The position numbers and the translations under genes are program-made. Below, piece after piece: positions 11,968-41,300 of a stretch of DNA of 64,000 bases. The notes below the pieces were generated by a model. The model was not told where the DNA came from and did no database searches. It was given only the letters and a program-made list of their open reading frames with translations. Origin of the DNA: Taeniopygia guttata (Eukaryota > Chordata > Aves > Passeriformes > Estrildidae); assembly GCF_048771995.1 (NCBI RefSeq), contig NC_133026.1:91902501-91966500 (forward strand), read 5' to 3'. Every line of letters begins with the position of its first letter. Position 1 is the stretch's first letter.

Positions 11968-12038
11968 CAGTTTCGTTTCCTGGCTGAGAATAAGTTTCAG
12001 TTTCTATTCTTCCTTACCATGGCAGCAGTTTCGTTTCT
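11968..12038 (+). promoter_or_regulatory. Interferon-response cluster: one ISRE and two IRF sites
   Basis: Three GAAA-type elements lie just upstream of a TATA box, all in the same orientation. The middle one, AGTTTCAGTTTCT at 11993-12005, reads on the other strand as AGAAACTGAAACT: two GAAA cores separated by two bases, the spacing of a classical ISRE bound by ISGF3 and IRFs. The outer two are identical over 12 bases, CAGTTTCGTTTC at 11968-11979 and 12026-12037. They read as GAAACGAAACTG, with one base between the cores, and each contains the IRF core AANNGAAA. The position, about 20-90 bp upstream of the TATA box, strongly suggests that type I interferon or IRF activity drives the downstream gene. 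Confidence 0.85.
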
Positions 12039-12058: not shown

Positions 12059-12066
12059 TATAAAAA
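12059..12066 (+). promoter_or_regulatory. TATA box of the ISG12-like gene
   Basis: TATAAAAA at 12059-12066 lies about 20 bp downstream of the last IRF element and 57 bp upstream of the start codon. Transcription would be expected to begin near 12085-12095, leaving a 5' leader of only about 30-40 bases. ISRE plus TATA plus a short leader is a typical layout for interferon-stimulated genes. Confidence 0.8.
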
Positions 12067-12122: not shown

Positions 12123-12270
12123 ATGTCTGACCGGAACGTCCACAATGCTGGCTTCACTCCCTCTGGGATCACAGGAGGGTCTCTTGCTTCATCACTGATG
12201 TCCCAAGAAGCCAGAGCCTCTGGGGGAGGTGTGCCTTCTGGAGGAGCCACTTCTACTCTCCAGGAAATGG
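12123..12270 (+). CDS. ISG12-like gene, coding exon 1
   Basis: 148 coding bases: residues 1-49 plus one base of codon 50. It ends ...GAAATGG and is followed by the donor gtatgagc. It carries the whole first ISG12-type repeat. The frame happens to stay open past the donor to 12485, but that extension has no family similarity, while the splice to exon 2 restores the family's LQ-x-x-G-A-x-G junction. Confidence 0.85.
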
Positions 12271-15200
12271 GTATGAGCAATTCTGTGTGTGACCCTGTGT
12301 GTGGTTTTGTGTTTCAGTGCATAGGATCAGACAGCTGTTTCTCCTTGAAAATAAGCTTGCCAAATAATCTCTTCTCTCCTATATTCCTGTATGGCACTGA
12401 AAAAAGAAGATTCCTTTATTTAGCTGTGCGCTATGAGCAAGATATTATTGAGGGTGTTTTCTGTGTGTGCACATACTATTCATGAATGAACATATACATA
12501 TGTGATATTCATGAGGTTTTGGACAGTGTTTATTTGAAGTTTGTGCTATCCCTCCATTCTGCCAGGAATCATCAATAATATGAAGAGTCATGGTAGCAAC
12601 AAGCAATGATGCACTTATGCAAGAACATGATCAGTGTAGCTACATTTCATATGAATTACCAGATTTCCCTTGCTCTTTATTCACATACATCCATACAGGG
12701 AGAACTCCCAAAACCTTATGCAAACTCTCTAAAGGAGAGAAATTAGTTGCAGTCCAAGAGACAAATTCATGAAGGGAATGTATAGACATCCTTGACGTCC
12801 CCCATTTAAGTGCTAAAATAAGGCACAGCTGCCTTTCACATGAGCTAACCCTGCAGGTGTTTGCTGTTCTGCTGCTGGCTGGGAGCAGTACCTGACCAGA
12901 CGACTCTTACCAGCTTGGCACTTGTTTAACCCCAGATCCCATGGGATTTGTGCACAAGGTATTCTCCCTGCCAGACCTGCCTGTGTGACCCAATTCAGCA
13001 GCATCCTCTGAACAGGCATGACTCCACAGAACAGAGTGCCCCCTGCAATCCTGCTTTACCCAGCAGCTCAGTATTAGCTCTCTGACCTCTATTAGCCTGA
13101 TAGAGGCTTCAAAACTCCTTCTGCCCTCGGGGTCTCAGACCCACATACCCCATGTGTCAGAGGTATGCCAGCCAGCAGGCTGATTATAGGTGGGCATCTC
13201 TGCCATTTTGGTCTACCACCAGTCTACTGTTCTCATAATCAGCAGGTAGAAATCTGAAAGATGGAGCTGAATGTGACTTCTCCAGCCATAAAATGGGTGG
13301 TTGACCAGGTGAGCTGGCCAGGGTCCAGATTCAGGGACCATCTTTTAATAGCCAAATATGTGTTAAGCTTGACTGAAAGGAAATAAGTTGGATTTTTTTT
13401 TTTTTTAAATATGATTTACATTGCCAATATTATTCATGGAGTGAGGCCCTCTAGACAATGAGGGAATAGGTGACACAAGGGTCATTCAGAGACAGTGCAT
13501 GTGACTCCTGTGAGGCATTTTTTTAATTTTCACATTGTATGATTTGAGTTTAGGTTCCTGAATACAGTGTTTATTGAATATTCAGTAGGAAAGAGCTTAA
13601 GGGATAGTAGCAGCCAAGGGACAGAATATGAGAGAAAGTAAGGAGAGGAGAGGGACAGAGAGAGTCAAAAGCAGAGAGGAGAGCTGCTCTCAGGCACCAC
13701 ACTGCCTCAGCAGCAGAAATCCTGGTACACAGGAGATGCCAGTTGCTCACTCTAGTGATAAGTTAGCTGCACAACCTGCCTTCTGTTACAGATCAGGGTG
13801 GTACAGCACACTCATAACCAGTGGCAAACTCTTTCAGTGGAGATGCCCTACAGAGATCATGAAGCTGTCAGTTCTAAACTAAAACACTGAAGATTTCTAT
13901 CCCTCTGTGTACTGAGAATTTTTATAAGAAACAGAAGCAAAATAAGCATTTAACTATGCCTAGTTTTATTCTTGCAATCTCTCTGTTAACGATGGACTTT
14001 TATGAAAACCACCATTTTGGTGAAGAGAAGTCTGCATGACTCAAGGAAACCTTTGCCGTGCCGACAGGAGATGCTCCAGAAGAGCTTTTATCCATGTGGA
14101 AAATGCTAGCTCTGTAACACTGCCAAGACAGGTGTGAGCTTTGGCTCCCTGCAGCAGGAGAGCTTGCCACACATTCTTTGCCTGATTGAGAGCTAAAAGG
14201 GCCTGATTTCATTTCCGCAGGTGCTCCCTGAAATCTCTCCAAACACATCTTCTTAACCTTTTTATTCAGACTGTAACTCTTCCTCCCCCCAGAACAAACA
14301 TGCTCCAAGGAGCGGCTGATTCTGCAGTGGGACATGAGTATTGTTCAGTGTCACTTTACAGAAGATGTTATAACAAGCTCATCACCAAAATATTTGAGCA
14401 TCCTCCAGGAATGCTTTAAGCATTATCACTAATATTTGTCATCACTGATGCTTTACTCATCTCCCAGGAGAAGAAGAGTTTGTAAAGGAATGTTTTGCTT
14501 GGGACTTATTTAGACTGAGATAAAGATAAACATATAAATTGACCACTGACTACCACAACTTGTGATACTTGAATTTTACAGGTATCTATTACAGGTTTAT
14601 GTGAGGGAAAGTGAAATGAAAAGAGCATGTTCATCACCTGTAACAGAAAGAGCAACAGTTCCTATTTTCTACAGAAGTTTATTCCGCAGTCCTCAGGTAG
14701 CTCCACAGAAAAGTGCAATTTCAGCAGAGGCAAATTGTGATGAAAATATTTTGGAGATCCAGGTTTATCAAAAACAGTCTGTTCAAGAGCTATAGATTTT
14801 CTTTGTGTTCTGGGAGCTCCCCAACAGAACTGATACTATCCTTTCCCCAAGGTAGCAGCTAAAAAGCAGTAGACTGACAGAACAAGTCAAGTGATCTGCA
14901 GTCACCTTATCTTTTTTTTACATTTGCTAGCCTTGAATTGTTTTAAAACACAGTAGTTTGTAATTGTCCTATAAGGACAATTGTCCTTTCTTTCTCAGTA
15001 ACATATCATTTGCAACTGTTCTAGGTGCCAGAGGCACAACCCACTCATCAGGCTATACCAGCAGCGGGATCTCTGGTGGATCCAGGGCCTCTGACACAAT
15101 GTCCAAGGAGGCCTCAGCTCATGGAGGTGGAGTTCCCAGGGGCGGCACAACTTCCACTGTCCAGTCCATCGGTAAGTGAGAATCCTCTCCATAAAGATGA

Positions 15201-16081
15201 CTTAACAAAGGACTTCTGAGGAGTCAGCAGTATTTCAGTTCATTTACTGTACATTTACTAGATGAAGGGATGCAAATAACAGGAGTGGCTGCTTTGTACT
15301 AGTAGCAATATTTCTATTGTTTGTTCCTGTAAACTTGGTGGGAAGATGAAACTGGGCAATTAGTGGAAGTAACTATGCCACAAACTTGCAAAGATATGAG
15401 TGGACGGTAGAATCAGAAATCTGAAACACAGTGACAGAAAAAAAAGCCCAATGGACTTTTAGATTATGCTTTCATCAGCACCACAGTGGCAGTTCAATAG
15501 TTCTTTTTCAATTACAAATTTAGGATTAAACCAAGGGCTCCACACTTGAACATACAAAGCAGATATAGTGGGAAAAAACAATGAGCCATGAGAATGGAGT
15601 TATCAGACTGATAGACAGGAGACATTAGTTTACTTCTTGGGGCCTTTCAGTACAGCTTTCTTTCCTTCAAAGGAAATTCATTGGGTCAAAACCACAAGAA
15701 TCTGCCTGCACTTACCAGCTCAAAGCAGAGACCAACAGAAATCTCCCTCATCACTCTGCCAGGTTAATGCAACCCGCACCCAGACAGAACAAACCAAACT
15801 GTGACAGAGCCCAGTCTATACCTGAATGCATCAGTAAGGATGCTCATTGTGTTAGGATCCTGTGGGGTTAGGAAGAGCCTTGGAGACAGGATTGAAGTTC
15901 TTAATTTTAAAAAGTGTCTTTCAAATAGTAACAGAGACCTTTGATTTCTGACCTGGGAAGGTTTGGAGCCAATGCTTTTATGGTCTGTATATTTTCTTGT
16001 ACTGCAGCTTTGATTTTTATTGTCCTTACAATTTCTCTGTATTTCTCCTTAGCCATGGGTGGAAAAGGAGGAAGACGCTGA
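12123..16081 (+). CDS. ISG12/IFI27-like protein, two polar tandem repeats
   Basis: Spliced gene with coding exons 12123-12270, 15025-15171 and 16053-16081, both introns in phase 1, giving 107 residues. Exon 1 contains GFTPSGITGGSLASSLMS (residues 10-27), SGGGVPSGG and TLQEMG. Exon 2 repeats the pattern as GYTSSGISGGSRASDTMS (59-76), HGGGVPRGG and STVQSI. Both match the ISG12/IFI6/IFI27 motif, whose family form is roughly GFTxxGIAAxSIAAKMMS, then AAAIANGGGV, then LQSVG. Known family members are small, hydrophobic, interferon-induced proteins of mitochondrial, ER or nuclear membranes that affect apoptosis and antiviral defence. Here the usual Ala/Ile/Val stretches are replaced by Gln, Glu, Arg, Lys and Ser (QEARAS and KEASAH where AAAIAN is expected), so no membrane segment is visible. 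The protein should be soluble and Gly/Ser-rich, and it ends in the basic tail GGKGGRR. The start codon has A at -3 and follows a TATA box by 57 bp. The splice sites are good and the frame stays open throughout, so it looks functional. I know no characterised protein of this polar type, so no gene symbol is given. Confidence 0.85.
15025..15171 (+). CDS. ISG12-like gene, coding exon 2
   Basis: 147 bases flanked by the acceptor ctgttctag and the donor gtaagtgag. Both ends are phase 1, so the exon is symmetric and could be duplicated or skipped without breaking the frame. It encodes the second repeat. Its DNA still resembles exon 1 (for example gggatc near the start and ggaggtg/ggagttcc in the middle), pointing to an exon duplication. 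Another good acceptor, tttctttctcag ending at 14998, lies 26 bases upstream; using it would shift the frame and reach a stop codon within nine codons. Confidence 0.85.
16053..16081 (+). CDS. ISG12-like gene, coding exon 3
   Basis: Short terminal coding exon after the acceptor atttctccttag. Completing the split codon gives A99, then MGGKGGRR and a TGA at 16079-16081. The glycine-rich basic tail has no hydrophobic segment. The rest of this exon is 3' untranslated sequence, probably running to the polyadenylation signal at 16520. Confidence 0.8.
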
Positions 16082-16519: not shown

Positions 16520-16525
16520 AATAAA
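16520..16525 (+). terminator. Polyadenylation signal of the ISG12-like gene
   Basis: AATAAA, 439 bases after the stop codon and the first canonical hexamer downstream on this strand. Cleavage would be expected about 10-30 bases further on, giving an mRNA of roughly 0.8 kb. Confidence 0.65.
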
Positions 16526-34856: not shown

Positions 34857-35462
34857 GAACCTTAAACATCATCGAGTTACAGTCCTCCTCGTCAGCCCCA
34901 TCCGGCCCCGCTTGGAACACTTCCAAGGATGGGGGTACGCGCAGTTTCCCTAGACAGCCTGCTGTCAGTGAAGAATCTCTTCCTAATATCTAATCCAAAC
35001 ACACCTGCTGTCAGTTTAAAGCTATTCCCCGCATCACTACGTGCCCTGGTGGAAAGTTCCTCTCCAGCTCTCATGCAGGTCCCTTTTACGCGCTGGAAGA
35101 ATCTACAAAGTCTTCTAGGCACCTTCTCTCTTTCGGGCTGATCAGCCCCACCTCTCTCAGCCTGTCTTCACAGGAGAAGAAAGCCCTCTGATCATCTTCA
35201 TGGCCCTCCTCTGAGCTCAGTCCAGCAGGCCCACACCCTTTTAACACCAGAGGCCTCCGATGCTCCAGGGATGCAGTACCCTGGGAGCAGGCAGAAGCTC
35301 TCCCCGGAGCACAGCGGAGGGGCAGAATCCCCTCCCTTGCCCTGCTGGCCACACTGCTTTGGGCGCAGCCCAGGACGGCGTTGTCTTTCTGGATTGCCCA
35401 TTTGTCGGGTCATGCTGAACTCCTTGTCAACCAACAGCCTCAAGTCTCCTCAGGAAGAGATT
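34857..35462 (-). mobile_element. CR1 LINE, about 600 bp, inverted
   Basis: Reverse-oriented CR1 that directly abuts the CpG island. It runs from its 3' end ('aaccttaaacatcatcgagt' near 34858) through 'cagcctgtcttcacagg' near 35159, 'atggccctcctctgagctca' near 35200, 'ggggcagaatcccctccc' near 35319, 'cctgctggccacactgct' near 35340 and 'cagcccaggacggcgttg' near 35368. These are antisense to the end of the CR1 ORF2 (reverse transcriptase) and its 3' UTR. On the - strand the conserved LDIRK-FFT motif of the ORF2 C-terminus is readable near 34960-35000. It is broken as a protein. No intact tail repeat is seen. Confidence 0.85.
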
Positions 35463-38345: not shown

Positions 38346-41300
38346 CTGAAGAAAGAGAGAGAAATATAAACATTCCCTTTAGATACTAAATCTGTAACAT
38401 TTCCTTTAACATGTGAGGTGCTGGGGGAAAAAAGAACAATATACAGCTGCTTCTTTGTGTAACATGAGAACAAGCTAAGGACATGAAAAGGAACCCTAAC
38501 TCTACTACTACCCTACTTTTGAGTGCTGTGCCCAGTTCTGGCCCCTCAGTTTGGGAAGGACACTGAGACACCTGAGCGCATCCAGAGGAGGCAACGAGGC
38601 TGGTGAGGGGCTTGGAACACAAACCCTGTGAGGATCGACTGAGGGAGCTGGGGGTGTTTAGCCTGGAGAAAAGGAGACTCAGAGGTGATTTTATCACTGT
38701 CTGCAACTTCCAGAAGGGAGGTTGTAGTCAGGTGGGGTCTGGTCTCTTCCACCGGGCAGCAACTGGCAGAATGAGAGCGCACAGTCTCAAGCTGTGTCAG
38801 GGAAGGTATAGGTTGGATATTAGGAAAAGATATTTCACCAAAAGATTAATAAAATACTGGAATTGTCTTCCCAGGGAGGTGGTAGAATCACCATCTCTGG
38901 ATGTGTTTGAAAAAAGACTGGACATGGCACTTGGTGCTATTGTCTAGTTGTGGTGTTAGGGTATAGGTTGGACTTGATGATCTTAGTGGTCTCTTCCAAC
39001 CTCATTATTCTGTGATTCTAGCATTTTGTCTTGAAAACCTGTAACCTGATCTGTTTTCCATGCTACTATTCCCATTTCCATGTTCTGTATCCAAATAAGA
39101 ACATGTAGCAAGAGAATCGTGAAAGAAGTAGCTTGATAAGTATCTGATGTAAAATTTGACAAAGATATCACAGTCTGTACTCCCTGCAGTGTGAACAGCA
39201 GCTCTGAGAGTGACTATTATTCATTTGCTTTAATTGCCTCATACTCCCCCATGTGTTTGCATGTGCAACTCTTAAAAAATCCCCACTGTTTCTGTTGCTT
39301 CTTCTGCCTAATTTAATAGCCACCCCTACATTGTTGTTCCCACTATGCATAGGCTGATCCCAAAGTCAGGGAGAAAAGACTAATTTTCTTAATCTGAAAC
39401 AAGGTCAGGTGCCTCTCTTGCTTGAGCATTATTTAAGGAACAACATTCTCAAATACATTTTGCACTAGATTGTTAATATGCAGCCAATGACCTGTTCCCA
39501 GTCTCCAAATTAGCTGAAGTGATCTCTGTGAGTAGAGTGATATAATTCAGCAGAAGTCACATGTCAATTTAAGCAACACAGTACATTTAGTAAGACTCCT
39601 AAATGATTCTAATTTAGTATTTCTTGCAAATTAATTTCCCTTAAAAATAAGTTGCCTGTTCAAAACTTCGAAGTCAGAGGAAAAACGCAGTACTGAAAAA
39701 CCCTACAAATTTTGCTCATTTTCTAATTTCTCAGGGTTTTTTTACACTTTTGTAAAAGTTTTTTAGCATAATAGTAGAAGTTTCATCTTTGAAGAGACAG
39801 TTCCCAGTCTGAACTTACCTGTCCTAGAAGAAAACCCTGGGTTTTGAAAGCTGTAATTTTTTATTTCACTGTACCATCTATCAGCCACATCTTTTCCTGA
39901 AAGACAAAAGAAACGTGCTGCAGAATCATGACATAAACACAAAAGTGTAGCTCACTTACAGCCTGGCCAGTAAGATCTTTTATAACTTAGAGCTTGGAAG
40001 GTAATGAAGACATCTGCCTCATCTTGGATAAGTGCTCCTGTCATCAGGTTTATACATACAGCTTGCACCAGCTTCTTCCTCTTGAAATGTGTTTGAAAAT
40101 GCCTAAGTGTACCAGATTTTCTAAGCAAAAGGTCACACCTGTGGATGTTTACCCCTTCCAGCTCCAGGTAAACCAAAGAAAAATTAAATTTCTGATGTCT
40201 TTTTAGTTTCCCATGTTCTCACCAGCATTGAATATTTCTGACTGTATTTATTTTTAGAGGTGTCTACCTAGCACTAAGCCATTGTGAGGGCCCATTTTGA
40301 GGCACTATAATCTGGAGTACTACAGAAACCTCAAATATTCATACTTAGGAGCTGTTTCTGTGTGGAAGCCTATGTGTCCAGCATTGTCTCATCCCACCCA
40401 AGGCTTTCCTTGACAACAGCTGCATAAGGACTATGACTACAGCCAGGGATGTAGCTCAGACCCAAAACTGCAGATGCAGTGCAGACAAATGTCAAATGTT
40501 ACTTGTTTTCCATTACTGGTTGTTAGGAAATTCTTGTGCCAAACACCAGGGGGATGAGAGGGGTTAGGTTTTTCCCTGAGCAACCTCAATAATTAAGTGC
40601 CTGCTTTGCGTTCCAGGATGCATCATCCACACAAGGCCAGGAGGTTTCAAAGCAAGCTGCCAAAGCTGTTAAGCCTGCCATCCTGAAGAATGCTGGTCCC
40701 TGGTGGACTGTTGGCTGCAGAAGAACAATGAGTCATGCTTTGCTATTTCACAGCAAAAAGTCTTAAACTTGTGCACTTCTGGAAGTCAGACTCCGTGTTA
40801 ACTTCCTTAAACTTCAGTTTGTTATGACTGAAGCCAGCTAAAAGGATGATGCTGTTAGCCTGGCAAGCTGGTTGTCAGAGCCCCAGCTGATAAGCAAATA
40901 TTCAATGAAGTGCTATCTCTAGAGAGGTTTATGAACTTGAAGTACTATGAACTTACATGCCACACTGGTTGTTAGGAATAGTGCTTAGTAGAGTAAATAT
41001 TTTTTTCTACATAGAAAGGTAACAAAACATCTCTTTCCTCCCAAAGTTTCAGGAACAGCAATTGGCTTTTCTTTTCCTTCTCTCCTTGCACCAGAAAAAC
41101 AAAACCAGTAGACCTGTATTATGGTTGAAGTATGTAACACATACTTATTCCTTTCTTACTTACACTAGAGTTAAAATGAAGGCTAAAATAAAATGCAAAT
41201 AGTGACCTTTATGCAATACAAGGGGAAAGAAAAAGCACATAGCAAAAAACCACACAACAAATCAATCAGGTCATCCTGTCCCACTCCAGATTTCATAGCT

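Follow-up and report, generated by a model that had tools for sequence, protein, structure and literature searches.

The three-exon gene at positions 12123 to 16081 of the window (the whole stretch of 64,000 nucleotides of zebra finch DNA that was analysed) is very probably the orthologue of chicken IFI6 (ISG12-2), a known interferon-stimulated gene of birds, and is an already known gene rather than a new one. It encodes a polar protein that carries two copies of the ISG12 core. It is quite possible, although we put it forward tentatively, that in birds IFI6 has become a cytosolic antiviral protein that is soluble and carries two ISG12 cores, without the membrane mechanisms of mammalian IFI6 and IFI27, and that the protein is possibly the last member of its family in this bird.

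Gene structure

An earlier note, made from the letters of the window, had described a three-exon open frame with good splice sites that encodes two tandem ISG12 repeats. This observation is confirmed and the gene itself is real. Joining of the three exons on the + strand gives a coding sequence (CDS) of 324 nt, which is an open frame encoding 107 aa with the C-terminus GGKGGRR, and both introns are GT-AG. The features of the gene are as follows, with the basis of each in brackets:

12123..12270, + strand, coding part of exon 1, repeat 1 of the ISG12 core (splice join, PF06140 profile match)
12271..15024, + strand, intron 1, GT-AG (splice join)
15025..15171, + strand, exon 2 of 147 nt with phase 1 at either end, encoding repeat 2 of the core (splice join, PF06140, repeat alignment)
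15172..16052, + strand, intron 2, GT-AG (splice join)
16053..16081, + strand, coding part of exon 3, basic tail GGKGGRR and stop (splice join, oligo matching)
16520..16525, + strand, AATAAA, possible poly(A) signal (motif only)

The TGA seen within the genomic match to exon 2, which runs to 15179, falls within intron 2, which begins at 15172. The Pfam profile PF06140 (Ifi-6-16) matches two stretches of the 107-aa protein with 82.2 bits, against a curated cut-off of 29.1, and this match is not due to chance. Human IFI27L1 (2loq) has the same ISG12 core (GFT..GI, S.A, MS..A.A.GGGV and LQ..GA.G, E 6.4e-05), but only one copy of it, as opposed to the two repeats of the window protein. A single core is also the state of the other mammalian IFI6 and IFI27 forms.

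The window gene lies on contig C3 (152.5 Mb), which may correspond to chromosome 2. For neighbouring genes, 10 of the 69 open reading frames of at least 90 aa in the window were scanned with Pfam, and none of the ten exceeded the cut-off. Two open frames, at 38576-38947 (+) and 35086-35409 (-), carry wording like RLDIRKR.F...WN.LPREVV, which we take to resemble the final part of a CR1-type LINE reverse transcriptase; a Pfam scan of these two frames found no match.

Relation to chicken IFI6

Chicken IFI6 has been cloned from DF-1 cells, with a 324-nt CDS encoding 107 aa, on chromosome 2 (PMC10687481), and the lengths of both CDS and protein are equal to those of the window gene. The accession NM_001001296 is given for IFI6 as well as for ISG12-2 (PMC7892438, PMC4600211). 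All six published chicken coding oligos fall best on the window CDS and do so in register, with matches of 20/21, 16/19, 16/19, 16/18, 18/19 and 20/22, where the best of 200 shuffles reached 15, 15, 14, 14, 14 and 16, respectively; the si54 oligo exceeds its shuffle maximum by one base only. The siRNAs named 54, 156 and 274 are placed at 49, 151 and 269 of the window CDS, a constant offset of 5, which suggests that there is no indel between the siRNA sites. The chicken 3′UTR oligo has no ungapped match (11/20, where the best shuffle reached 14).

The chicken gene (NM_001001296, ENSGALG00000013575) thus compared has the start MSD.NVH, the TTST and the tail GKGGRR in common with the window gene, with no change of length between oligo sites. 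The comparison extends over the oligo-covered 35 of 107 codons, of which 28, including those of TTST and GKGGRR, encode the same residue and 7 a different one; the remaining 72 codons, including the QEARAS and KEASAH stretches, lie outside it. Published relatives of chicken IFI6 include zebra finch NM_001197179.2, with 83.1% aa identity, and bee-eater XM_008944065.1, with 67.6% (PMC10687481). The IFI27L2 of the chicken papers may be a third name for IFI6/ISG12-2, or a different gene.

The statement of the earlier note that no such family member had been described does not hold, given that the chicken counterpart IFI6/ISG12-2 is on record as a cloned gene: it is induced by virus, it inhibits avian reovirus, and its tagged product gives fluorescence throughout the cytoplasm. 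In chicken DF-1 cells, replication of avian reovirus goes down when IFI6 is overexpressed and up when it is knocked down; MAVS mRNA follows IFI6, while IFN-β and IRF1 mRNA go the opposite way, these being mRNA levels from one study (PMC10687481). A limited search of the literature found no statement that avian IFI6 is soluble.

Hydropathy and cellular location

Mammalian IFI6 and IFI27 are held to be membrane proteins (PMC10687481). The hydrophobic membrane-spanning segment that is the hallmark of ISG12/FAM14 proteins is not recognisable in the 107-aa protein on the Kyte-Doolittle scale: its best 19-residue window reaches 0.62 and none exceeds 1.6, with a GRAVY of -0.48 and a pI of 10.8. Human IFI27L1 is more hydrophobic, although the 52-residue fragment that served as control has a best 19-residue window of 1.62, barely over 1.6. 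On a Hessa-type sum, the window protein scores 8.53 and the IFI27L1 fragment 4.11, both positive, so that the control is likewise not called a membrane segment. An AlphaFold prediction for exon 1, in which the only other row of the alignment was exon 2, has a mean pLDDT of 53.8 and one helix at 21-32. Of the polar, soluble protein that had been proposed, the polarity stands, with no membrane segment on the hydropathy scale, and solubility is plausible only. For chicken IFI6 the polarity is only partly shown, because the QEARAS and KEASAH stretches lie outside all oligos.

Doubtful, although a real possibility, is that the protein is still membrane-bound, with two amphipathic helical stretches lying on the membrane surface, and acts on the ER or mitochondria like mammalian IFI6. 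The hydrophobic moments of GSLASSLMSQEARAS and GSRASDTMSKEASAH are 0.67 and 0.70, compared to 0.34 for the IFI27L1 counterpart, and it is because these helix stretches are more amphipathic than that of IFI27L1 that binding to the membrane surface stays possible; their mean hydropathy, however, is low (-0.07 and -1.04, respectively). The published placements of the avian protein differ. A review puts IFI6 in the ER (PMC11545081), and a chicken study puts ISG12-2 on mitochondria (PMC5042506), but the latter cites human work for this. Tagged chicken IFI6 gave fluorescence throughout the cytoplasm, which speaks against a membrane location, although neither the methods nor the legend mention an organelle marker, and the same paper terms the IFI27L1-like part a transmembrane region (PMC10687481).

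Other family members in the genome

A second family member of the membrane type is of relevance to the suggestion, also made in the earlier note, that the window protein serves membrane-type ISG12 proteins of the same cell as a decoy or a partner. Among the best-scoring candidates of a PF06140 search of the 1.14-Gb genome, only exons 1 and 2 of the window gene were over the cut-off. The IFI27L1 fragment likewise found only these two exons, with E values of 0.006 and 0.014. A place on C16 with a PF06140 score of 18.9 bits (E up to 10) is under the cut-off, has translations without GFT or GGGV, and was taken as chance, as were two extra places from the protein search with E values of 6.5 and 9.5. 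A degenerate codon pattern for ANGGGV found 23 places in the genome, compared to 8 in the reversed control, and none of the 23 was ISG12-like by eye; this pattern had no positive control, the window gene itself having ASGGGV and AHGGGV, and members that lack ANGGGV are missed by it.

Eight of the 23 ANGGGV places (L025, L026, L027 (C32), L029, L030 (C36), L031 (C38), L032 (C39) and L016 (C4)) share a similar translation, LAAPAVV.MWN.LWRF.YQ and relatives, and are therefore taken as a repeated sequence on several small contigs and C4.

Chicken has a second, virus-induced family gene, listed as ISG12 (BN000222.1) and cited as mitochondrial. It has the family name and induction by virus in common with the window gene, and differs in that its reverse primer translates to MGFTAA, a standard core, and in that its counterpart was not found in this genome. 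We take BN000222.1 to be ISG12(1). The absence here of a second family gene may be lineage-specific, or may reflect a gap in the assembly or a miss of the search. The family core kept in the window protein, and the second gene in chicken, would suit a decoy or partner, but this reading loses its object because the searches of this genome turned up no family gene of the membrane type; we regard it as improbable, and the original suggestion is weakened.

Probable duplication, and constraint between the repeats

Repeats 1 and 2 have the same residue at 27 of 48 aligned positions. From its phase and its similarity, exon 2 appears to have arisen by copying of the core in exon 1, and the duplication looks old because synonymous sites between the repeats are near saturation (pN 0.36, pS 0.72). 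The presence of the same polar change in both repeats had been read as a sign of selection. This argument is weak, given that a single change before the duplication would make both repeats polar without two events. The related claim that the gene is conserved rather than decaying fares better: pN/pS between the repeats is 0.50 (codon bootstrap 0.32-0.74), albeit with the near saturation of synonymous sites noted above.

Between the window CDS and the chicken oligos, the 35 comparable codons hold 7 replacement changes and 5 synonymous ones, a pN/pS of 0.54, which are too few to speak of constraint. Arithmetic on the printed identities for chicken and zebra finch (87.4% nt and 83.1% aa, with denominators unchecked) gives about 41 base differences and 18 residue differences and, with the site ratio from the codon comparisons, very roughly a dN/dS of 0.3-0.5. 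That the gene is a decaying, non-functional copy is very improbable, the loss of hydrophobicity being the only point in its favour, against the open frame, the GT-AG introns, the length equal to the chicken CDS, the constraint between the repeats, and a chicken counterpart that is both expressed and active (PMC10687481).

Putative promoter

Upstream of the start codon are a TATA-like box and three elements of the type TTTC-N(1 or 2)-TTTC:

11971, strand not given, IRF/ISRE-like element with one-base spacing (TTTC-N(1 or 2)-TTTC motif)
11995, strand not given, IRF/ISRE-like element with canonical two-base spacing (TTTC-N(1 or 2)-TTTC motif)
12029, strand not given, IRF/ISRE-like element with one-base spacing (TTTC-N(1 or 2)-TTTC motif)
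11971..12037, no strand assigned, group formed by the three IRF/ISRE-like elements (motif search)
12060..12066, + strand, TATA-like box TATAAAA, some 60 bases upstream of the start codon (read in the sequence)

All three elements, one canonical and two variants, lie at most 160 bases upstream of the start codon. The motif TTTC-N(1 or 2)-TTTC occurs 33 times in the window, and the promoter trio is the only case of three within 120 bp. Clusters of three were found in 1 of 200 first-order Markov sequences, a null that is too easy, with a mean of 11.6 elements per sequence compared to the real 33. The canonical form GAAANNGAAA occurs 12 times in the window without clustering, GAAANNGAAAC occurs three times, compared to 0.74 expected, and one of these copies is at the promoter, and GAAACNGAAAC occurs once, a count that 18 of 100 shuffles also attain. 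The region is a likely, although still putative, interferon promoter; of the interferon promoter first proposed, one canonical ISRE-type site with two close variants remains, and the statistics are weak, given the easy null and the shuffles.

In chicken, infection and gut colonisation raise ISG12-2/IFI6, and it was the highest induced gene in macrophages of a resistant line 48 hours after influenza infection. It is the top-listed induced gene in one study of chicken caecum (PMC5042506), and a review has IFI6 raised by chicken interferons (PMC11545081).

Implications for the IFI6 family

If the window gene behaves like its chicken counterpart, for which induction is published, infection or interferon would switch it on, probably via the ISRE-type sites. 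The three exons would then give a basic, Gly/Ser/Thr-rich protein of 107 residues, in which the two ISG12 cores would have come from duplication of a single exon. In the cytoplasm IFI6 would hold down virus replication, as has been published for chicken DF-1 cells. In the mechanism that we favour, IFI6 would regulate signalling near MAVS, either in the cytosol or at the membrane periphery, a placement that is possible but more speculative still, and would not be an integral protein of ER or mitochondrial membranes, unlike what is held for mammalian IFI6. If the protein is soluble, the mechanisms of mammalian IFI6, i.e. ER protection and mitochondrial survival, would not apply to birds, and if avian IFI6 is both soluble and cytosolic, its placements in the ER and in mitochondria would be a wrong carry-over from mammals.
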